Shown: one piece after another, positions 3,001 through 63,134 of the stretch
Layout: every line of letters begins with the position of its first letter
Position numbering within the stretch: position 1 is the first letter of the stretch
Assembly (NCBI GenBank): GCA_902776435.1
Contig: CACYQB010000003.1
Span: 88,621-152,620 of the forward strand
Direction: 5' to 3'
Origin: an uncultured Bacteroidales bacterium
Lineage (GTDB): Bacteria; Bacteroidota; Bacteroidia; Bacteroidales; Muribaculaceae
Length of the DNA stretch: 64,000 nucleotides
Translations under genes and position numbers: made by a program
Notes under the pieces: generated by a model
What the model was told of the DNA's origin: nothing
Database searches by the model: none
The model's input: only the letters and a program-made list of their open reading frames with translations

Positions 3001-3037
3001 TAATGACGGCAAAAATTATTTTTTTTCGGTTCAGCAT
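1..3037 (-). CDS. sprA: SprA/Sov, type IX secretion outer-membrane translocon (N-terminal part, cut by window edge)
   Basis: Reading leftwards from the ATG at 3037 the frame stays open for 1012 codons to the window edge, so the C-terminal part is missing; SprA proteins are usually about 2400 residues. The N terminus is MLNRKKIIFAVIIGTLIG, a signal peptide, followed by a proline run (PPPPPPP) and TPQLDLQYNVKHTVPQNYD, which I recognise as the start of the SprA/Sov family. The body has the family's wording (for example KVFGPGGVQLKTTGSV and FDFDSKNLKLAYEGKEDE). SprA is the very large outer-membrane beta-barrel through which type IX cargo leaves the periplasm; it is required for gliding in Flavobacterium and gingipain export in Porphyromonas. 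It sits 58 nt downstream of ruvA, an order common in Bacteroidetes. No own promoter is obvious, so it is probably co-transcribed with ruvA. Confidence 0.93.
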   Translation of the reverse strand, partial: MLNRKKIIFAVIIGTLIGLWAGNDTLLAQYVTSTLPPPPPPPDTRPSAQQQKTPQLDLQYNVKHTVPQNYDDVQDNREYAADLKTPSNITSVVEFDPETGCYVIHTRLGDNDIVTPYIMSSDEYSNMDFRRSMMEYYRQKNAESAQDKEKDPFNFLDMQFGMGPLEKVFGPGGVQLKTTGSVTINMGVKTNSTDNPALSVSQRRKSYFDFDQKIQANITASVGDKMRFSMSYNTGATFDFDSKNLKLAYEGKEDEIIKNIEAGNVSMTTGSQLIRGSAALFGVKTKLQFGKLTATALVSQQNSESQTVSSKGGSQTTEFYLSADKYDQNRNFFLSHFFRDHYDEWCSKLPLVSSGMHITRIEVWITNKRNNYNESRHIMGFMDVGEGEEINILNPHWIGQSGSLPDNSSNTLMDEIKDNYPDARYMSKASAALAPLKSYGFEGGRDYEKIESARLLTTAEYTLNPSLGYIMLNTALSSDEILAVAYQYTYGGQTYQVGEFSSDITSTDQSLYVKLLKGTTSSPYYPMWDLAMKNVYALGAYSIQKNNFKLNIKYLSDTTGNELTYIPAGAINGVPLLQVMNLDRLDANQETNIDGKFDYLEGYTVQSKTGKIIFPVVEPFGEHLRSKFHDDAIAEKYIYTELYDSTLTVAQQFSDKNKFVLAGEYQSSSGSVIRLNATNVARGSVVVTAGGVTLTENSDYTVDYVMGTVTITNQSIIDAGTNVSVSLENQSTFSMQRKTLLGLDLDYAFNKDFHIGGTIMHYGEKAIGDKVAIGSELVNNTIWGVNLSYNTQFMWLTNLLNKIPTVNAVAPSTLNFRGDFAQLMPHQAKTGSNSGSSYIDDFESTQSGIDMRSPYSWFLSSTPSDPNSESPLFPEATLNGDVAYGKNRALLSWYYVDRLFTQRNSSYAPGYIKNDLDALSYPYAREVAFSEVFPGRELNYGESSVIQTLNLSFYPRERGPYNLDGTNVDQDGYLLFPEKRWGGIMRKIENTNFEQSNIEYIQFWMLDPFMDP

Positions 3038-3095: not shown

Positions 3096-3689
3096 TCACA
3101 TCATCTTGAGTGCCTGCTTAATCGCGTCTTCAACACTCAAGCCCGGATTCTTGGAAATCAGCGACTTGAGTGCCTTTTGTGAGGCCTGCTGGGAAAAACC
3201 CAACATGACGAGAGCGGCAAGCGCTTCATCATAAACAAGACCAGCAGGTTGGCCCGCTTGTTCTAATAACGTATCACCAGTGGGTTTTATTTTATCTTTC
3301 AGGTCAACTATTATTCGTTGGGCAGTTTTTGCTCCCACACCTTTCACGGCTTTGAACATGGCGATATTGTTGCCTGTAATAGCCTGTGACAATTCATCAA
3401 CTGTCATTGAGGACAGAATAACCCTAGCCGTGTTAGGGCCAACGCCCGAAACTGATATGAGCAAGAGGAAAGCCTCTCTCTCCTTCCTCGATGCAAAACC
3501 ATAGAGGGTGTGAGCATCCTCACGAATGACCTCATGCACAAATAACATCGCAGTATCGTTCTTGCTCCCACGATTAAGCACATCATAGGTATTGAGTGAG
3601 ATATTCAACATGTAGCCCATGCCATGATTGTCAACTACCACATAGGCAGGGTTGAGTTCGGCTATCGTTCCTTTGATATAATCTAACAT
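3096..3689 (-). CDS. ruvA: Holliday junction branch migration protein RuvA
   Basis: A 197-residue protein of normal RuvA length. It begins MLDYIKGTIAELNPAYVVVD (the OB-fold domain I, about residues 1-63), has the helix-hairpin-helix segments around LLLISVSGVGPNTARVIL and AVKGVGAKTAQRIIVDLKDK (about residues 75-135), and ends in the small domain III (EALAALVMLGFSQQASQKAL) that contacts RuvB. RuvA tetramers hold Holliday junctions in a square-planar form and recruit the RuvB motor. The start lies 4 nt after the stop of the upstream subtilase, so the two are co-transcribed, and sprA follows. The protease neighbours are probably not functionally linked. Confidence 0.97.
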   Translation of the reverse strand: MLDYIKGTIAELNPAYVVVDNHGMGYMLNISLNTYDVLNRGSKNDTAMLFVHEVIREDAHTLYGFASRKEREAFLLLISVSGVGPNTARVILSSMTVDELSQAITGNNIAMFKAVKGVGAKTAQRIIVDLKDKIKPTGDTLLEQAGQPAGLVYDEALAALVMLGFSQQASQKALKSLISKNPGLSVEDAIKQALKMM

Positions 3690-3693
3690 AATC

Positions 3694-5811
3694 TCAGTTC
3701 TTTAAAATCAATTCAATCACACTGTTGACGTCACCAAGCTGAATTTCACCGTCTCTATTCACATCGGCACGAATCATGGTGGCAGCGTCGCGATACATAG
3801 ATGAGCCGAGGATGATGTCAATAACTATCATGACATCGGCTATATTCACCTCCCCGTCATTATTCGCATCTCCTTTCAATAGATAATTATCAATTATATG
3901 ATTGACAGCGGCTTGAACATCAAGTTTCCCGCATCCCCATTGCTCAGGATTACCATCAATCACGTAAGAATCCCGCTTCGATGTCGCCTTTAAGACATCA
4001 CGCACCATATTTGCATTGAGTTGTGGATGCAATTGCAACATCAGCGCGACGCAGCCGGTTACCACTGGGGCAGACATTGATGTTCCCTGGTTGACGTAAT
4101 AAGGATATTCAATCCCATCGACAGTTGCGGGAATCGTCCAGGTCCTTTGCACTGCATCAGTTTCATATCTGCTGGCCGAGGAAATGACAGAATAGCCAGG
4201 GGCGCAAACATCTGGTCTTGAAATGCCTCGTTCATCGGGTCCAAATGACGAAAATGTCGCAATATCAGTAGGATAACTACCATTTATAACGACAGGGTCA
4301 CCACTCATGTTGATATAACTTGCTCGCGTGCAATAAGCACCAACAGAAATCACATCATCGGTCGTCGCCATATCACTGATGGACCCTACCGGCGATCCGC
4401 CTGTCATACCAGGCAGGTTAAATGTGTAGAAATACGTGTTTTTAGTACTCCATCCCGATAGCGATGTTGACTGATTGGCCATATATTGGATTCCAACCAA
4501 AAAGCCTGACACCAGCGACGTCGCATCAAATATCCAGTACGAATGGAAACGTCCGTTCTCGCTTTCTGTTCCATCAGCATTAAATTGAGGCTCAACGGCA
4601 TTCACATATTGAAACTCACCCGTATAATAATCGCCAAAGCACAGGTCTTTCTCACTGCTTACCGTAAAGACACTATCCTCGGGCAATGCGCCGATCCAAG
4701 GGGAAGCATATACCATTTCACCCGTCTGTCGGTTGATGATGACAATGCGTGACAAGTGCTCCTGGGGTCCATCATTCCACATGCTTACGTACCCCTCACG
4801 CTGCATGCCTCCCCAACGGTTACGCAACAGCGTTGTCACCGTGTCGCGTTCGCCTGTCAAGTTCCGGTGAAAGCAGATGGGCGCATCGCCATCATTCCCA
4901 GCCGACAACACACAAATATGTCCTGGTCCTGAGAGTGAAGAAAAAGTCCTGCACAGGAATGACGACCCGTCGTTGGGTCCATCATTGCTGCCGAGACTCA
5001 TGTTGATGACACAGGGTTTACCTACCCTATCAGCATAGTCGAAGATATAACGGACTCCGTTAGCAATATTAACATCAGTCAATTCATTTTCAGGCATTCC
5101 ACATACCACGATATCAGCAGCTGGGGCCACGCCATATAAGCCGTTAGACATATAGCTGCCGGCGGCAGTTCCTGTCGTGTGGGTGCCATGAGATGACCCA
5201 ACATTGTCTGTCGTAAGCAAGGATATTTCCTGAGCTGTTTCGTAGCAACTGCCAGGTAAAGTGCAATCATCGACCACAGAAGATCTACCTGTGCTATCAC
5301 ATGGCATATAGACCGCACGAACACGGGAAGTTCCATCTTGCCCACGCCAATTCACATGGTTGAAATCAAATCCAGTGTCAATCATACCCACAATAATGCC
5401 TTCACCACGCAGGGGGGCGACTAAGCCTTTAGCTTGCAAGATATCATCGACATGGGAATAATAGCGGGCGCTGTCGTTACATAGTGTCACATGACGCCCC
5501 AGGGCGATATGAGACACCCCAGAGATTCGAGACACTTCATTCAGCCTCTCTTCAGGAAAGCTCGCAGTCAAAAAGCCATCAAATACAGCATTAACTTCAA
5601 CTCCTGCAGCCTTCAACGAGTCAATTACAGCTTGATTGCCAAATGCAATGAACGCGTGAAGGTCATGAGAGCGGGATTCAGGAATGCCGCGATTACGTAA
5701 TTCGCTCTTACTGAACAGCATGAAACGGGAAGACGCACTCAACAAATCACCCGCCCAAGCCATCGGCTTGAGAAACAGAAACAACGATATTATCAGGATG
5801 GCCCTGTTCAC
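3694..5811 (-). CDS. Secreted subtilisin-like serine protease with C-terminal dockerin-like pair (copy 1)
   Basis: A 705-residue S8-family peptidase. The start is GTG; its G is the last base of the TAG stop of the upstream paralogue (TAGTG, one-base overlap), which implies translational coupling. The signal peptide is MNRAILIISLFLFLKPMAWA. The catalytic triad is intact: Asp145 (VGMIDTGFDFNH), His208 (SSHGTHTTGTAAG) and Ser578 (GTSMSAPVVTG). The residues between His and Ser are interrupted by a long insert, as in many Bacteroidetes S8 enzymes. The last about 60 residues hold two calcium-loop repeats (DANNDGEVNIADV and DVNRDGEIQLGDV), a dockerin type I-like module that ends four residues before the stop. 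Substrate is unknown. It is a tandem duplicate of the next gene upstream but well diverged from it. Confidence 0.9.
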   Translation of the reverse strand: MNRAILIISLFLFLKPMAWAGDLLSASSRFMLFSKSELRNRGIPESRSHDLHAFIAFGNQAVIDSLKAAGVEVNAVFDGFLTASFPEERLNEVSRISGVSHIALGRHVTLCNDSARYYSHVDDILQAKGLVAPLRGEGIIVGMIDTGFDFNHVNWRGQDGTSRVRAVYMPCDSTGRSSVVDDCTLPGSCYETAQEISLLTTDNVGSSHGTHTTGTAAGSYMSNGLYGVAPAADIVVCGMPENELTDVNIANGVRYIFDYADRVGKPCVINMSLGSNDGPNDGSSFLCRTFSSLSGPGHICVLSAGNDGDAPICFHRNLTGERDTVTTLLRNRWGGMQREGYVSMWNDGPQEHLSRIVIINRQTGEMVYASPWIGALPEDSVFTVSSEKDLCFGDYYTGEFQYVNAVEPQFNADGTESENGRFHSYWIFDATSLVSGFLVGIQYMANQSTSLSGWSTKNTYFYTFNLPGMTGGSPVGSISDMATTDDVISVGAYCTRASYINMSGDPVVINGSYPTDIATFSSFGPDERGISRPDVCAPGYSVISSASRYETDAVQRTWTIPATVDGIEYPYYVNQGTSMSAPVVTGCVALMLQLHPQLNANMVRDVLKATSKRDSYVIDGNPEQWGCGKLDVQAAVNHIIDNYLLKGDANNDGEVNIADVMIVIDIILGSSMYRDAATMIRADVNRDGEIQLGDVNSVIELILKN

Positions 5812-54498: not shown

Positions 54499-56595
54499 TT
54501 AACCTTGCTGCATCGTGAGCAGGAATTCCTCATTGTCGCGTGTGCGCTCCATGCGCTCCTTGACAAACTCCATGGCCTCGACTGAGGTGCGATCACTCAA
54601 GAAACGACGTATGATCCACATCTTGTTCAACGTATCCTGAGGCAAGAGCAGGTCATCACGACGAGTGCTTGATGCCATAACGTCAACTGCAGGGAAGATA
54701 CGCTTATTAGAGAGCTTACGGTCGAGCTGCAACTCCATGTTACCTGTACCCTTGAATTCCTCAAAGATCACCTCGTCCATCTTGGATCCGGTTTCGGTTA
54801 ACGCGGTTGCAATGATGGTCAAGCTGCCACCGCCCTCGATGTTACGTGCGGCACCAAAGAAGCGTTTGGGACGCTGCAGCGCGTTGGCATCAACACCACC
54901 AGTCAAAATCTTGCCCGATGCAGGTGCAATGGTATTATAAGCGCGTGCCAAGCGGGTAATCGAGTCGAGCAGGATAACCACGTCATGACCACATTCAACC
55001 AGTCGTTTTGCTTTGCTCAATACCAAGTCAGCAATCTTGACATGGCGGTCGGCTGGTTCATCAAAGGTCGATGCGATAACCTCGGCATTCACGCTGCGAG
55101 CCATATCGGTCACCTCCTCGGGACGCTCATCAATGAGCAAGATAATCATATAGGTCTCAGGGTGGTTCTCTGAAATGGCATTGGCTATTTCCTTCAAGAG
55201 CATTGTCTTACCTGTCTTAGGCTGAGCGACGATAAGTCCACGTTGTCCCTTGCCAATGGGTGAGAACATATCTACCACGCGCTGTGACACTGTGGGATGA
55301 CGCTTGCTCACGAGATCAAACTTCTCATCTGGGAACAGGGGTACAAGATGCTCAAACGGAACGCGGTCGCGAACGTAGGCGGGTGTGCGGCCATTAATCA
55401 GGCGAATCTCGCTCAGCGGGAAATACTTCTCGCCCTCCATGGGGGGACGGATTGTGCCTTCAACGACATCACCGGTCTTGAGACCATAAGCCTTGATTTG
55501 AGACTGCTGCACATAAATGTCGTCGGGCGACGTCAAGTAGTTATAGTCACTTGAACGAAGGAAACCATAGCCTTCAGGAGCAATATCCAGCACACCCTGA
55601 GCCTCAAGAATGCCATCAAAATTGTAAGGCTGGTCCACATAAGGGTTCACCTCGGCTATCTGCTGCTGTTGCTGCTGTTTGTTTTTGCGTTTCTTATTCT
55701 TGCTCTCCTTTACAACCTTGGGTTCCTGAATGACGATTGGAGCAGCGGCGGCTTCCTCGGCTGCGCGCTTACGCTCTTCCTCGGCACGACGTTGGGCCTC
55801 TTCCCTTTCCTCTTGGGTGCGGGGCTTAAAGGTGAAACCGCTACCAGTATTGAAGAATGAATTCAATGAAACGTCTTCTCGTTCGCGAGGTTCTATCGGT
55901 TGCTGCGGTTGCTGAATTTCTGGCTCATTCTCATAATCCATCACCATCTCGGGCTCGGGTTCCATTTCAGGCTCAGGTTGAGGTTGTTCGGCTTCCATGT
56001 TGTCAAAAGGCAAGACAGGTTCAGCAGCCTGGGCTTGTTTTGACTTACGGCCACGACGACGTGCGGGTTGTTCCTTTGTCGGCTCAGTGACTTCCTGCTG
56101 AACAGGCTGGTCATTAGCAGGTTGCTCTTCTGTTACAGGGTTATTCTGACTTTCAGCCATGGATTGTTCGGCCAGGAGAGCGGCCTCACGAGCAGCCTTC
56201 TCGGCAGCCGAGGGACGGCCACGCTTACGCTTTGGCGCTTCCACTACTGGAGCCTGCTCTTCATTGTCCTGGGGCTGTTCCTGAGGTTCGGGTTGCGGCT
56301 CGGGAACCACGGGCTCTACCACTTTATTTTCTTTTTTGCTTTTGCCTTTAGTCGCTACTGCATCATCCTTGGTCACATTCGTTCCATTTGCCTTGGCGGC
56401 CGGTTGACGTATGCGTTCACGACGGCGCTTACCCGGTTCTGGGGTGTTAGCCGCTTCGTTTACCGCCTGCACATCAAGGATTTGATAAAGAAGTTCGCCA
56501 GTTTCGACAGTATCCGCTTTCTTGATACCCATCGAATGAGCTAACTCACGCAGTTGCGCTTCGCTCATTGCTTCTAATTGATCAATATTGTACAT
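54499..56595 (-). CDS. rho: Transcription termination factor Rho with large disordered insert
   Basis: A 698-residue protein; E. coli Rho has 419. Residues 1-50 are the Rho_N domain ([20 protein letters not shown]). Residues about 51-325 are low-complexity: acidic Pro/Gln/Glu stretches, and AT-hook-like basic patches (KRKRGRPSA at 122-130, RRRGRKSK near 180) and a Gln run near 310. The cold-shock RNA-binding domain follows ([14 protein letters not shown], about 341-354), then the ATPase with P-loop QPKTGKTM (458-465) and Walker [17 protein letters not shown] (539-554). In Bacteroides thetaiotaomicron a comparable insert drives Rho phase separation and is needed for gut fitness; the same is inferred here. 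A long leader precedes it. Confidence 0.96.
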
Positions 56596-56912: not shown

Positions 56913-56920
56913 TAATTTTG
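56913..56920 (+). promoter_or_regulatory. -7 box of the CCA/MGMT fusion gene
   Basis: TAATTTTG, 19 nt before the ATG. The -33 is poor (TTG with short spacing). Confidence 0.5.
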
Positions 56921-56939: not shown

Positions 56940-58865
56940 ATGGAAATAAACCATCAAAAAATAGCCCGTCACATCAATCTTCCCGTCATGAAACTGGTTG
57001 GAGAAGTTGCTGATGAACTCGGACGCGAATGTTACGTTGTGGGCGGTTACGTCAGGGACATCTTCCTGGAACGCCCCAGCAACGACATGGACTTTGTGAC
57101 CGTCGGCAGCGGCATCGAGGTAGCAAAGGCCGTGGCACGCCACCTGGGTAAACGGGCTCATCTTGCGGTATTCCGCACCTATGGTACAGCACAGGTCAAG
57201 ACCCGCCAGTGGGAACTGGAATTTGTGGGTGCCCGCCGTGAGTCTTATCATCGCGAGAGCCGTAATCCCATTGTGGAAGACGGAACCCTCGAAGATGATC
57301 AGCGCCGCCGCGATTTCACCATCAACGCAATGGCCATCTGCCTGAACAAGGAGCGTTATGGTGAGTTGCTTGACCCATTTGACGGCATAGGAGATTTGGA
57401 ACGTCGCATCATCCGCACGCCACTCGACCCAGACATCACCTTCAGTGACGACCCGCTGAGGATGATGCGTGCAGTGCGGTTTGCCACCCAACTGAATTTT
57501 GACATTTTCCCCGAGACTTTTGAGGCCATCAGACGGAATGCGAAGCGCATCAATATCATTACCCGTGAGCGTATCGCCGAGGAACTGATGAAGATCATGC
57601 GCAGCAACCAACCCTCTCGCGGATGGATACTGCTGGAACAATGCGGTCTGCTGCCGCTCATATTTCCCGAACTGGCAGCGCTAAAGGGCGTTGAAACGGT
57701 CAATGGCCGCGGGCACAAGGATAACTTCATGCACACGCTCCAAGTGCTGGACAATGTGGCAGCAGCCAGCGATGATGTCTGGCTGCGGTGGGCTGCGGTA
57801 CTGCATGATGTGGGCAAGGCCCGCACCAAGCGTTGGGACCCGCAGCTGGGATGGACATTCCATAACCACAACTTTATCGGTGAGAAGATGGTTCCCAAGA
57901 TTTTCGCCAAGATGCGCTTGCCGCTCAATGAGCACATGAAATATGTGAAAAAACTTGTGGGACTGCACATGCGTCCTATCGCCCTTGTCGAGGACGAAGT
58001 GACAGATAGTGCTGTGCGGCGCCTGCTCTTTGATGCCGGTGACGACATTGATGACCTGATGACCTTGTGCAAGGCAGACATCACCAGCAAGAACCAGAAC
58101 AAGGTGCAGCGCTTCCGTGAGAATTTTGACTTGGTGAAGCAGAAACTGGTTGACATTGAGGAGAAAGACCGGGTACGCAATTTCCAGCCACCGGTTGACG
58201 GTCAGGAAATCATGGTAACCTTCGGTCTCGAACCCTCTCGTCCCGTTGGTTATATCAAAGATGCCATCAAGGATGCCATCCTCGACGGAGAGATCACCAA
58301 TGATTACGCTTCGGCCTACTGCCTCATGCTTCACAAAGCGCAGGAACTCGGCATTGAACCCGTTCACAAGGGGCAACTCTGCCACACCACGATAGAAACG
58401 CCTGTGGGAGAACTCCACATCGGTGCCACTGAGCAAGGAATTGTCTTCATCGGTTGGGAGAAAGACGCTATCCTCAAGATGGCCTGCAAGATGAAAGTTA
58501 AGCCCGTTGAAACCGTTACTCCCCTACTGGCCCAGTGCAGTACACAACTTAAGGAATACTTTGACGGTAAGCGTCGGGAATTCTCACTGCCCCTTCACCT
58601 CGTGGGCACCGAATTCCAAATGCAGGCATGGCGAGCGTTGCAACAAATCCCTTATGGCGAAACCATCTCCTATGGCGAACAGGCTAAACGCATCGGCAAG
58701 CCCAAGGGTTTCCGTGCCATTGCCCAGGCAAACCACAACAACCCAGTGTCTATTGTCGTTCCTTGCCACCGTGTCATCAACGCCGACGGTTCCTTAGGCG
58801 GCTACGCTTCCGGAACCGACAAGAAACAACAACTCCTTGCCCTGGAATCCCAAAACAAGGAGTGA
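56940..58865 (+). CDS. Fusion of CCA tRNA nucleotidyltransferase-type protein and O6-alkylguanine-DNA alkyltransferase
   Basis: One uninterrupted 641-codon frame. Residues 1 to about 475 are a class II polymerase-beta nucleotidyltransferase: GGYVRD (35-40), the catalytic pair Asp49/Asp51 in SNDMDFV, RRRDFTINAMA (122-132), DDPLRMMRAVRFATQL (170-185), and an HD domain with AVLHDVGKA (His289-Asp290). This is the CCA-adding/poly(A) polymerase family common in Bacteroidetes. Residues about 478-641 are a complete MGMT: GTEFQMQAWRALQQIPYGET, SYGEQAKRIGKPKG, and the active site VVPCHRVI with acceptor Cys609, then GGYASG. No stop, start or frame change lies at the junction. The protein should both mature or repair tRNA 3' ends and remove alkyl groups from DNA guanine, if both halves are active. 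Confidence 0.9.
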   Translation: MEINHQKIARHINLPVMKLVGEVADELGRECYVVGGYVRDIFLERPSNDMDFVTVGSGIEVAKAVARHLGKRAHLAVFRTYGTAQVKTRQWELEFVGARRESYHRESRNPIVEDGTLEDDQRRRDFTINAMAICLNKERYGELLDPFDGIGDLERRIIRTPLDPDITFSDDPLRMMRAVRFATQLNFDIFPETFEAIRRNAKRINIITRERIAEELMKIMRSNQPSRGWILLEQCGLLPLIFPELAALKGVETVNGRGHKDNFMHTLQVLDNVAAASDDVWLRWAAVLHDVGKARTKRWDPQLGWTFHNHNFIGEKMVPKIFAKMRLPLNEHMKYVKKLVGLHMRPIALVEDEVTDSAVRRLLFDAGDDIDDLMTLCKADITSKNQNKVQRFRENFDLVKQKLVDIEEKDRVRNFQPPVDGQEIMVTFGLEPSRPVGYIKDAIKDAILDGEITNDYASAYCLMLHKAQELGIEPVHKGQLCHTTIETPVGELHIGATEQGIVFIGWEKDAILKMACKMKVKPVETVTPLLAQCSTQLKEYFDGKRREFSLPLHLVGTEFQMQAWRALQQIPYGETISYGEQAKRIGKPKGFRAIAQANHNNPVSIVVPCHRVINADGSLGGYASGTDKKQQLLALESQNKE

Positions 58866-58895: not shown

Positions 58896-59369
58896 TCACT
58901 CAGCCGAGTTGGCTTTCGGGTCAACTCGGAATGTGACTGTGCGGTTGTAAACGTAGTTGGCAAGAGTGTAAGCGACCATGGCAAGAACCATGACAATGTT
59001 CTGGCCAGCTTTCTGCATCGGGAAGAAGGGAATAATGTCATCAGGCAGATTCTTCCAGCCGAGTCCCTCAAGCAGAATCCAGCTGACACACAGCTGCAAA
59101 GCAAGACAGATGAGGAATCCGCACACAAACAGGAACAACTCTCGCTTCACGTTATCCTTGCTCTTAAACACCCAATTGCGATTCCAGACAAAACTGTTGA
59201 TTACACCTAGCACATAGCCAGTTACATTGGAAATACCGTAGGAGAGTCCCAATTTGGTATTCAACAGATAGAAAGTCACCAGCGTGATAAGCGTATTCAA
59301 TACACCTATCACAGCATACTTGAGAAGTTGTATACCCGTTTGTCGGGCTTCGGCCTTGTCTATCTTCAT
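58896..59369 (-). CDS. GtrA family membrane protein
   Basis: A 157-residue protein with four membrane helices: LLKYAVIGVLNTLITLVTFY, GISNVTGYVLGVINSFVWNR, LFLFVCGFLICLALQLCVSW and NIVMVLAMVAYTLANYVYNR. The sequence ...VIGVLNTLIT... and SFVWNRNWVF are typical of GtrA, proposed to flip or present polyprenyl-linked sugars for surface glycan synthesis. It is convergent with the CCA/MGMT gene and monocistronic, with its own promoter. Confidence 0.9.
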   Translation of the reverse strand: MKIDKAEARQTGIQLLKYAVIGVLNTLITLVTFYLLNTKLGLSYGISNVTGYVLGVINSFVWNRNWVFKSKDNVKRELFLFVCGFLICLALQLCVSWILLEGLGWKNLPDDIIPFFPMQKAGQNIVMVLAMVAYTLANYVYNRTVTFRVDPKANSAE

Positions 59370-59991: not shown

Positions 59992-61366
59992 TACTGTTTT
60001 GAGGAGCGTTGGGATCCTTGGGTTGACGCGGTCTGAACGTCTTGACTGGACGGGGTTGACGATCCTGACGTTGCGGTTTATCTCCACGCGGTTGCCCCTG
60101 GCCATCATACTGTTGGCGTTTGGGCTTGGGAGGACGTTGCTTGCGCTCAGGCTTACCTGATGCGCCTTCACCCTCACCCGCGGGCTGCGGTTTCTCAGCC
60201 TTGGCGTTTACATCACCCTTATTGGAGGAATCGCCGGCAGGCTTGTCGCCCGAACCCGATTTCTTTTTCTTCTTTTTCTTCTTCTTGTCAAAACGGCTGA
60301 TGCTGTCCTGTGTCAGCAGGTCGCCGAAGGGAGAAGCGCTCTTCTTGCCGTCATCCTCGGGCTTTAGGCTATCGGGCTTGATGCCATTCTTGTTCAAGGC
60401 TATAATCTCAAATGCCTCGGCAGCAGTCAAGGTCACCGTATTGGCCATCGAATTGCGTTCAGTGGAATAGATAATCTCCCGTTTCAGGGCATCGGCCTTG
60501 AAGTAGTAATATACGGCGTCCTTGGTTTCCAGATGCACATCCTTAGGCGGCAGTTGGCGTATCGCCTCGACATAGGTATTTACCTCAAAGTTAATGCAGC
60601 ACTTGAGCTTGGCACACTGGCCTGCCAGGTTCTGCGGATTGAGGGAAATGTCCTGGAAACGGGCAGCGCTGGTGGCAACGGACACGAAGCCCGACATCCA
60701 CGTGGCACAGCACAACGGCCTGCCACAGGGGCCAATGCCACCGATGCGGCCAGCCTCTTGACGTGCGCCGATCTGCTTCATCTCGACGCGTATCTTGAAC
60801 ACGTCGGCCAGCACCTTGATGAGTTGGCGGAAGTCCACACGCTCGTCGGCAATATAGTAGAATATGGCCTTGTTGCCGTCGCCCTGGTATTCGACGTCGC
60901 CGATTTTCATCTTCAGTCCCAAGTCCACAGCGATCTTGCGGGAACGTATCATCGTGTCCTCTTCGCGTGCCTTGGCCTGCTCATAGCGTTCCATGTCGGC
61001 TGGTTTGGCCTTGCGGAACACCCTCAGTATCTCGGCATCCTTGCGCAGGTTGACACGTTTCATCTGGTTCTTGACCAGTCGACCCGTGAGGCCCACACGC
61101 CCGATGTCGTGACCTGGATTGGCCTCAACAGCTACCCAGTCGCCCCGTTTCAGCGGGATGTTGGTGCTGTTGCGGTAGAATCCGCGGCGAGTGTTCTTGA
61201 AGAGCACCTCGACAATATCGAAATTGTTGTCGGGAATGTCATCAAGCCAGTTGGTACTCACCAGGTTACATCTGCCGATGTCGGTAGCGCAGCAACCCTG
61301 CGAACAGTTCACACAGGTTTCAGCGCCTTCGGTCAGATTCACTTGTCTGTTCTGATTCTCGTCCAT
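59954..61366 (-). CDS. ricT: RicT-like PSP1-domain protein (YaaT), RNase Y specificity factor, with long basic tail
   Basis: A 470-residue protein from ATG 61366 (MDENQNRQVNLTEGAE); a GTG four codons upstream is possible. The cysteine-rich N terminus CVNCSQGCCATDIGRC and the PSP1 core (RIGGIGPCGRPLCCATWM and QCAKLKCCINFE) carry the Cys that bind [4Fe-4S] clusters in the B. subtilis Ric (Y) complex. There RicT acts with RicA and RicF to direct RNase Y. Here the gene directly follows rny, which supports that role. The C-terminal about 135 residues are disordered: a run of nine Lys, then Pro/Arg/Gln/Gly-rich sequence. RicA and RicF are not in the window. Confidence 0.88.
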   Translation of the reverse strand: MDENQNRQVNLTEGAETCVNCSQGCCATDIGRCNLVSTNWLDDIPDNNFDIVEVLFKNTRRGFYRNSTNIPLKRGDWVAVEANPGHDIGRVGLTGRLVKNQMKRVNLRKDAEILRVFRKAKPADMERYEQAKAREEDTMIRSRKIAVDLGLKMKIGDVEYQGDGNKAIFYYIADERVDFRQLIKVLADVFKIRVEMKQIGARQEAGRIGGIGPCGRPLCCATWMSGFVSVATSAARFQDISLNPQNLAGQCAKLKCCINFEVNTYVEAIRQLPPKDVHLETKDAVYYYFKADALKREIIYSTERNSMANTVTLTAAEAFEIIALNKNGIKPDSLKPEDDGKKSASPFGDLLTQDSISRFDKKKKKKKKKSGSGDKPAGDSSNKGDVNAKAEKPQPAGEGEGASGKPERKQRPPKPKRQQYDGQGQPRGDKPQRQDRQPRPVKTFRPRQPKDPNAPQNSNASNQQNTGEKN

Positions 61367-61381
61367 CGTGGTACGCACACA

Positions 61382-62923
61382 TTATTTAGCGTAGCTCACG
61401 GCACGCGTCTCGCGGATGACGGTGATGCGCACCTGTCCGGGATAAGTCATCTCGTCCTGAATCTTCTGAGCAATCTCGTTGGACAACTTCTCGGTCTCCT
61501 CGTCACTGATCTTATCAGCACCGACAATCACGCGCAACTCGCGGCCAGCCTGGATAGCATAAGTCTTTACCACGCCAGGATAGGACAATGCCAAGTGCTC
61601 GAGGTCGTTAAGGCGCTTGATATAGGCCTCGACAATCTCACGGCGGGCACCAGGACGGGCACCGCTGATGGCATCACACACTTGCACGATGGGAGCATAC
61701 AGGCTCGTTGCCTCTTCTTCGTCGTGGTGGGCACCGATGGCGTTGCAGATGTCGGCTTTCTCCTTAAACTTCTCGGCCAACTTCATACCCAACTGTGCAT
61801 GCGGCAGTTCGGGCTCATCATCAGGCACCTTGCCGATGTCGTGCAACAAGCCGGCACGGCGGGCCTTCTTGGGATTCAAGCCCAGCTCGCTTGCCATGAT
61901 GGCACACAGGTTAGCGGTCTCGCGCGAATGCTGCAGCAGGTTCTGACCATAGCTCGAACGATATTTCATCTTACCGATAAGGCGGATGAGTTCGGGATGC
62001 AAGCCGTGGATACCCATGTCAATCGCAGTGCGCTTGCCGGTTTCAATCACCTCTTCCTCGACCTGGCGGCGAACCTTGGCAACGACCTCCTCGATGCGGG
62101 CGGGATGGATACGGCCGTCGCTCACCAACTGGTGCAGCGCCAGGCGTGCGATCTCACGGCGCACAGGGTCAAAGCCCGAGAGAACAATAGCCTCGGGGGT
62201 ATCGTCAACCACGATTTCAACGCCCGTTGCAGCCTCAAGGGCACGGATATTGCGGCCCTCGCGACCGATGATGCGACCCTTGATTTCATCGTTGTCAATG
62301 TGGAACACGGTCACCGCATTCTCGACAGCGGTCTCGGTTGCCACACGCTGTATGGTCTCGATAATGATGCGCTTTGCCTCCTTGTTGGCGGTCATCTTGG
62401 CGTCATCCATGATGTCATTGATATAGCTGGCCGCATTGGTCTTGGCCTCGTCCTTCAGCGACTCGATGAGCTTCTCCTTAGCCTCCTCGGCCGACAGACC
62501 GCTGACGTGCTCGAGCGTGTCACGCACGCTTTTCTCCAGCTTGTCAACCTCTTTCTTGCGCTCATCGAGAAGCGCCATCTGGTTGTCCACGTTCTGCTTG
62601 AGGTTCTCCACCTCATTGCTGCGGCGCTTGAGTTCGCCCTGCTGCTGATTGAGCGTCATTTCACGCTGTTTGAGCTTAGCCTCGGTGGTCTGCACCTTCG
62701 TCAAGCGAGCGTTAGCCTCTTTCTCGGCCTCACTCTTGATGGACAGGCCAGCCTCCTTGCCTTTCAACACCTCGTTATTCTTGAGGACCTCGGCTTCAAG
62801 ACGGGCCTTCTCAATGATTTCGTTGGCTTGCGACTTGGCATTCTTGCGAGACAAGTACAACGCCAGTCCACAGCCAATTGCCATCGCCAGGATGGCTACG
62901 ATAACAGTTATTATTATATTCAT
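61382..62923 (-). CDS. rny: Ribonuclease Y
   Basis: A 513-residue endoribonuclease that initiates mRNA decay at the membrane. An N-terminal transmembrane helix ([20 protein letters not shown]) is followed by a long coiled coil (residues about 28-200), a KH domain ([21 protein letters not shown]), and an HD domain with [20 protein letters not shown] and [20 protein letters not shown]. Length is normal. Upstream are zapA and a coiled-coil gene; downstream, ricT starts 15 nt after the stop. Confidence 0.97.
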
Positions 62924-63134
62924 TTTTTAAATAAAATATTAAACAAAACGCGCCACTCACGACCGCGATTAACACACTGATAACCAATGTCGTCTCTCGC
63001 AAAGCCTAAAGTGGTGCAGGAACCTAATTTCAAAACAATATATCAAATCACGCCACATCCTCCCCTCCTGAATCTCAAGAGGTTAACGGCCACACGTCAC
63101 CCCGTGACACATGCACTGCCGAATGGGCACAATT
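62924..63134 (-). other. 211-nt untranslated stretch between zapA and rny
   Basis: No ORF. Read as RNA on the minus strand it contains several short stems: TGCC/GGCA (near 63114-63126), CATGTGTCAC paired with GTGACGTGTG around GGG (63089-63111), and CTCtTGA/TCAgGAG (near 63063-63079). This is more structure than I would expect for a plain leader. A weak -7-like TAGGCTTTG occurs near 63008. It may be a structured rny leader or an RNA gene; zapA neighbours 6S RNA in Proteobacteria, but I could not make it fold as 6S. Confidence 0.3.

Follow-up and report, generated by a model that had tools for sequence, protein, structure and literature searches.

Within a 64,000-nucleotide stretch of contig CACYQB010000003.1 (positions 88,621 to 152,620 of assembly GCA_902776435.1), which derives from an uncultured Bacteroidales bacterium of the family Muribaculaceae and which we call the window, we identified one gene whose product carries two enzymes on a single chain: a class II CCA-type tRNA nucleotidyltransferase followed by an O6-alkylguanine-DNA alkyltransferase (Ogt, also known as MGMT). 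This is a true single-gene fusion. We assign a probability of roughly three in four to the reading that the gene derives from an operon and encodes a bifunctional housekeeping protein whose two enzymes work independently of each other.

A single frame encodes both enzymes

The gene and its parts lie at the following window coordinates:

56940..58865, + strand: fused gene, 641 amino acids (about 73 kDa, estimated from length) and a TGA stop, in a single stop-free frame that is kept in relatives
56940..58346, + strand: class II CCA-type tRNA nucleotidyltransferase with HD domain, residues 1-469, delimited by Pfam, NCBIfam, Foldseek and the end of the last helix
57084..57092, + strand: presumed catalytic Asp49 and Asp51 (DxD), identical in 49 of 49 fused sequences
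57804..57809, + strand: His289-Asp290 of the HD domain, identical in the same 49
58347..58373, + strand: interdomain linker, residues 470-478, differing in length and sequence between genera
58374..58862, + strand: Ogt/MGMT, residues 479-641, with RNase-H-like N-terminal and DNA-binding domains, from Pfam, PDB sequence matches and Foldseek
58764..58766, + strand: acceptor Cys609 in PCHRV, present in 49 of 49 fused sequences, with PCHR in all 102 fused loci checked, a set that includes duplicates

Each half is recognized by its domains, all of which score above the curated Pfam cut-offs: PolyA_pol (residues 31-159), PolyA_pol_RNAbd (186-247) and HD (263-348) in the CCA half, and Methyltransf_1N (482-553) and DNA_binding_1 (558-637) in the Ogt half. 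The PolyA_pol head, the RNA-binding domain and the DxD motif, whose catalytic role we assume from general knowledge of the family, place the first half among the class II tRNA nucleotidyltransferases. The second half is placed in the Ogt/MGMT family by its two domains and its PCHR acceptor cysteine, the residue that is replaced in alkyltransferase-like (ATL) proteins. No Pfam match to the zinc domain or the AraC-type helix-turn-helix of Ada regulators occurs on the 641-residue chain. Foldseek matched the first part of the predicted structure to tRNA-processing and CCA-adding enzymes and the second part to Ogt (4bhb, 4wxc, 4wxd), with template modeling (TM) scores by target length of 0.81-0.84 for the Ogt half against 4bhb, 4bhc, 4wxc and 4wxd.

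Among 49 dereplicated fused sequences (the window's included), Asp49, Asp51, Arg124, Asp125, His289, Asp290, Arg592, Cys609, His610 and Glu636 are all identical, and positions 579 and 600 vary. A first-pass annotation, made from the sequence by itself, had proposed an uninterrupted frame from a nucleotidyltransferase/HD protein into a full MGMT and had named Asp49, Asp51, His289-Asp290 and Cys609; the frame and the positions of these residues are all borne out. Compared with the window's protein, these sequences are on average 83% identical in the CCA part and 57% identical in the Ogt part. Over 634 pairs drawn from 98 sequences, some of them the same genome taken from two collections, the median ratio of nonsynonymous to synonymous substitution rates (dN/dS) is 0.05 for the CCA part and 0.15 for the Ogt part, with a maximum of 0.37 in the latter. 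Both halves are thus kept by purifying selection, the Ogt half less strictly.

In the AlphaFold2 model, computed from 50 sequences (the window's, 37 other fused and 12 unfused), the last CCA helix ends at residue 469 and the first Ogt strand begins at 479. Members of the window's genus have a short linker between them; in the two other genera that carry the fusion it is mostly longer and differs in sequence. The mean predicted local distance difference test (pLDDT) score of 90.7, alongside a predicted TM (pTM) score of 0.66, suggests two well-folded domains of uncertain relative placement. The annotation's remark that the MGMT half lacks an obvious start of its own also holds, as the junction has no conserved start codon: across residues 462-500, the 52 fused genes that we aligned share a single invariant ATG, that of Met463 inside the last nucleotidyltransferase helix, and an ATG at residue 485, inside the first MGMT strand, occurs in 21 of the 52. 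We therefore rejected an internal start for the Ogt half, an Ogt-containing isoform initiated at Met463 being conceivable.

Distribution of the fusion

We searched 101 genomes of the window's genus (g1) and found the fusion in 82, the window's own included; 11 are unfused, 2 are undecidable and 6 have no match, so that 82 of the 93 decidable genomes are fused. Both halves fall in one match in 77 of the fused genomes, including the window's. In the other five (G020, G024, G030, G007 and G075) the gene is split elsewhere by contigs, gaps or a frameshift, yet the junction itself is crossed in one frame. The CCA frame ends with a stop at the usual place in G004, G008, G012, G033, G035, G041, G043, G044, G045, G064 and G092. 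The undecidable genomes (G060 and G085) and the six without a match are all incomplete (62-83%). Close relatives include metagenome-assembled genomes (MAGs) from rumen and other ruminant-gut samples, labeled Muribaculaceae, Prevotellaceae or Bacteroidales, together with two MAGs of Candidatus Sodaliphilus, a genus that NCBI places in Muribaculaceae and to which the window may belong.

These counts also dispose of the idea that an assembly or frame error joined two neighboring genes. The window does come from a 43-contig assembly, and one relative (G075) has an apparent frameshift in its CCA half. However, the identical in-frame junction recurs in 82 genus genomes and in named MAGs of several projects, which excludes a missed stop or frameshift near position 58370 and leaves an artifact with practically no credibility; we have ruled it out. 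The first-pass annotation had named two outcomes that would speak against a fusion, separate genes in all related strains or such a missed stop or frameshift, and neither is what we found. The gene of G075 (L135 / L104) is otherwise fused; its apparent frameshift, near residues 354-365, may mark a real pseudogene or an assembly error.

Beyond the genus, a family sample of 397 genomes yielded two sister genera with the fusion, g28 (5 of 5 genomes) and g23 (4 of 9), and no further genus with a fused row among the matches listed. No row joining both halves appeared among the matches listed for an order sample of 295 genomes, nor any fused row among those for a phylum sample of 117 other genomes, outside which lies a weak match in G727. 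We tallied genomes of the genus and the family manually from match tables, the status of G206 being settled by a separate look. The mixture in g23 of fused species, among them that of L113 (G122), and unfused ones (5 of 9) makes it a place to study both gain and loss of the fusion.

Several long frames were considered as further fusions and rejected. Those of the phylum-sample genomes G707, G712, G734, G762, G789 and G794 gave no Ogt match (best E value 0.32 or worse) and contain no PCHR in frame. The 898-residue cca frame of G422 (L171) crosses unknown bases into another HD-like protein, the extra length in G626 is an N-terminal extension, the G569 sequence had been aligned past stops (its frame has 477 amino acids and no Ogt match), and the cca frames of G004 and G230 end directly after the CCA part.

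Copy number and tRNA ends

At an E value of 0.001, PF01035 has exactly one match in each of the 82 fused genus genomes, inside the fused frame, so that these cells have no other alkyltransferase of the family. A search of the window's genome with the whole protein gave a single match and no other nucleotidyltransferase. The CCA half is not a sole copy everywhere, since a second nucleotidyltransferase, 34-36% identical to it, is present in five fused genus genomes (G005, G017, G030, G050 and G080); it also occurs in G060, and its frames span 472-492 amino acids across the six genomes. ARAGORN read 32 distinct tRNA sequences in the window's genome, 26 without a CCA end and 6 with one (30 of 45 tRNA loci). 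Because most are read without an encoded CCA, a CCA-adding enzyme is needed, and the first half of the fused protein is the candidate for this role, as against poly(A) or A-only activity.

The 11 unfused genus genomes have PF01035 elsewhere in eight cases and, by genome search, not at all in G008, G012 and G035. A separate frame of Ogt size is present in G033, G041, G043, G044, G064 and G092, and G045 has only a short frame of 133 amino acids. The one-contig genome G004 has one short frame and one Ada-like frame with weak, below-cut-off AraC-type helix-turn-helix matches. Short PF01035 proteins of 122-147 amino acids (L166-L170, from G122, G045, G004, G206 and G144) stand beside or instead of a full Ogt; we considered and rejected ATL proteins as their identity, as all five keep PCHRV. 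No shared neighbors of stand-alone ogt genes were seen between the unfused g23 and g1 Ogt groups, nor between the two g1 subgroups.

Genomic context

The window belongs to a 3.45-Mb genome in 43 contigs (G000:C3). The fused gene is flanked by rho (54499-56595, - strand) and a gene for a GtrA-type membrane protein (58896-59369, - strand), and one further element lies directly upstream:

56913..56920, + strand: TAATTTTG, a putative Bacteroidetes-type -7 promoter element, 19 nucleotides upstream of the ATG and conserved as TAnnTTTG

We take TAnnTTTG to be the Bacteroidetes -7 promoter consensus. It occurs upstream of the fused gene in 11 of 11 correctly oriented regions (16 were aligned, 5 of them in the wrong orientation), and the conservation of this element suggests that one promoter probably drives the whole gene. 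Elsewhere in the window, an 815-codon open frame (60533-62980, + strand) runs antisense to the RNase Y gene (61382-62923, - strand) and part of the PSP1 gene; it is most likely a by-product of codon usage.

Evolutionary history

In genome G126 of genus g27, separate cca and ogt genes overlap by ATGA, with the ogt start at 3003-3005 and the cca stop at 3004-3006 of L111. From such an overlapping pair, a fusion requires only loss of the stop and a change of frame, and the arrangement is a plausible precursor-like state. G110 has cca and ogt on one strand, ogt roughly 1 kb further downstream and one more open frame in the interval.

We built trees for the two halves separately. The cca tree held 85 of 109 rows after near-copies (more than 93% identical) and short rows had been dropped, and a later version omitted 4 truncated or long rows; the Ogt tree held 75 rows, leaving aside five short PF01035 proteins and near-copies, and later also L148 and L161. 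L104, with its frameshift in the CCA half, was labeled separate in the first cca and Ogt trees and fused in the later ones, and L145, cut by a contig end, was labeled separate in the first cca tree. The Ogt tree unites the fused domains of g1 and g28 in a single clade (99/95), as it does those of g1 alone (100/99), and most fused domains of g23 adjoin the g1 and g28 clade. Unfused species of g23 and g1 have stand-alone Ogts that fall in two other groups (95/98 and 100/99), and a single clade for all fused Ogt domains is not rejected (p 0.42).

In the cca tree the unfused g1 species lie inside the fused ones, as a seven-row group and the pair G008 and G035. One clade for the fused g1 genes is rejected (p 0.012, from a bootstrap that had not settled), and unfused members are thus read as nested among fused ones. 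Given one clade of fused g1 Ogts and nested unfused cca genes, the most economical scenario has the fusion arising once, before g1 itself, and being lost at least twice inside the genus. G008 and G035 still have rho and GtrA as neighbors of cca, and no PF01035 match was found in either genome, although they are only 82% and 87% complete. The Ogt half appears to have been lost in some lineages, the trees pointing to loss instead of repeated gain. Downstream of the unfused cca in L127 (3511-3993, - strand) lies a 160-codon open reading frame made mostly of 20-residue repeats (approximately YLSDxLYTWDGKYLYRGNST), underlain by a 60-nucleotide tandem array at 3617-3889, and the regions that follow cca in L129 and L130 translate into sequence that looks similar by eye.

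A probable bifunctional housekeeping protein and the alternatives

In the reading we prefer, the N-terminal three quarters of the protein would be the cell's CCA-adding enzyme, building or repairing tRNA CCA ends, and the C-terminal quarter would be its Ogt, moving alkyl groups irreversibly from O6-alkylguanine in DNA to Cys609, with a short flexible linker joining the two. The fusion probably arose in an ancestor shared by a few Muribaculaceae genera, when a translationally coupled cca-ogt pair is likely to have lost the cca stop and changed frame. The supply of Ogt would then be set by housekeeping expression of cca, and functional cross-talk would be unnecessary. The absence of obligatory cross-talk is the best reading because the Ogt half is absent or replaced in nested lineages, linkers vary and the model has no defined arrangement of the domains. 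The first-pass annotation had offered two interpretations, of which simple co-expression fits better, given the varying linkers, the lack of a well-defined domain arrangement, the faster-evolving Ogt half, the absence of Ogt from two nested lineages and the overlapping gene pair in a relative; control of tRNA repair by alkylation stress found no support.

Several observations weigh against this account. The best NCBIfam model for the CCA half, TIGR02692, covers residues 9-457 with 360.4 bits, below its cut-off of 438.8. In the Ogt tree the fused L113 of g23 is set apart by a 91/83 branch, and the Ogt of G126 stands beside a fused domain with a weak placement (61/88). A single origin is supported only for two of the three fused genera, so that two or three fusions are possible, and repeated fusion or recombination of cca could also explain the nested unfused genes. 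The low pTM bears on domain packing only indirectly. Finally, 82 species-level genomes have kept the fusion and unfused lineages are few, which could mean that the physical link is useful in itself.

One alternative is that the halves are functionally coupled. An alkyltransferase works once, and spent alkyltransferases are destabilized after alkyl transfer, so it is conceivable that alkylation of Cys609, or a spent Ogt domain destabilizing the chain, inactivates or removes the attached CCA enzyme and thereby slows tRNA maturation and translation. The presence in the window's genome of just one copy of each enzyme, both on the same chain, the lack of CCA in most tRNA genes read there and the wide conservation of the fusion in the genus are all in keeping with this. 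However, nested lineages lack the Ogt half and retain a CCA enzyme 75-81% identical to the window's, the linker is variable, the modeled domain arrangement is not well defined and self-destruction of a needed enzyme would presumably be costly. A link from alkylation damage to tRNA maturation is conceivable, but we found no evidence for it and consider it unlikely. Less likely still is its elaboration as an alkylation gauge, in which each repair would spend an Ogt and one CCA enzyme, so that heavy alkylation would lower CCA maturation and slow growth until the damage is cleared, with no transcription factor involved.

The physical joining of an RNA-binding enzyme to an alkyltransferase also raises the thought that the tRNA-binding half might bring Ogt to RNA or to active genes for repair of alkylated guanine there. 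We regard this as very improbable: the Ogt half has an ordinary DNA-binding domain with invariant Arg592, Cys609, His610 and Glu636 and no sign of RNA use, and unfused close kin do without the link. We give similarly little credence to the notion that one half is inactive, or is cleaved off after translation. The faster divergence of the Ogt half might be expected of such a passenger, but its acceptor cysteine and other key residues are invariant, its dN/dS is well below 1 and no second PF01035 match exists in any of the 82 fused genus genomes.

Comparison with known systems

In most members of a genus of gut bacteria known largely from ruminants, two textbook enzymes are joined on one chain. 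The fusion offers a natural setting in which to ask whether a suicide repair protein can be carried by a tRNA enzyme that the cell needs, with apparent stages among relatives that run from separate genes through an overlapping pair and the fusion to later absence or replacement of the Ogt half. We know of no link between a CCA-adding enzyme and an alkyltransferase, and our searches of open-licence PMC papers gave no published description of a CCA-Ogt fusion, as judged by titles and the openings of abstracts.

The CCA half shares its head domain, DxD motif, RNA-binding domain, HD domain and fold with class II CCA-adding enzymes such as that of Thermotoga maritima (5hc9) and with 1vfg, which we take to be the Aquifex A-adding enzyme. 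In contrast to these, whose entry descriptions give no alkyltransferase on the chain, the fused protein continues into Ogt after a linker of about 9 residues. With Mycobacterium tuberculosis Ogt (4bhb) and the alkyltransferase domain of Ada (1sfe), the fused protein has in common both domains and the PCHRV acceptor motif. Ogt is normally a separate protein, or is joined to a regulator in Ada; here it follows a tRNA enzyme and lacks a separate start.

Fusions of alkyltransferases are themselves known. In one review, a natural fusion of O6-alkylguanine-DNA alkyltransferase (AGT) with endonuclease V is described from Ferroplasma acidarmanus, and AGT-2 of C. elegans is described as an alkyltransferase with a histone-like domain; the words tRNA and nucleotidyltransferase do not occur in it (PMC10779285). 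The Ferroplasma protein resembles ours in joining an alkyltransferase to another nucleic-acid enzyme (PMC10779285). Unlike that fusion, as far as it is described there, the partner here is a tRNA-processing enzyme and the N-terminal domain of Ogt is kept. Both enzymes are known, as are alkyltransferase fusions; the pairing appears to be new.
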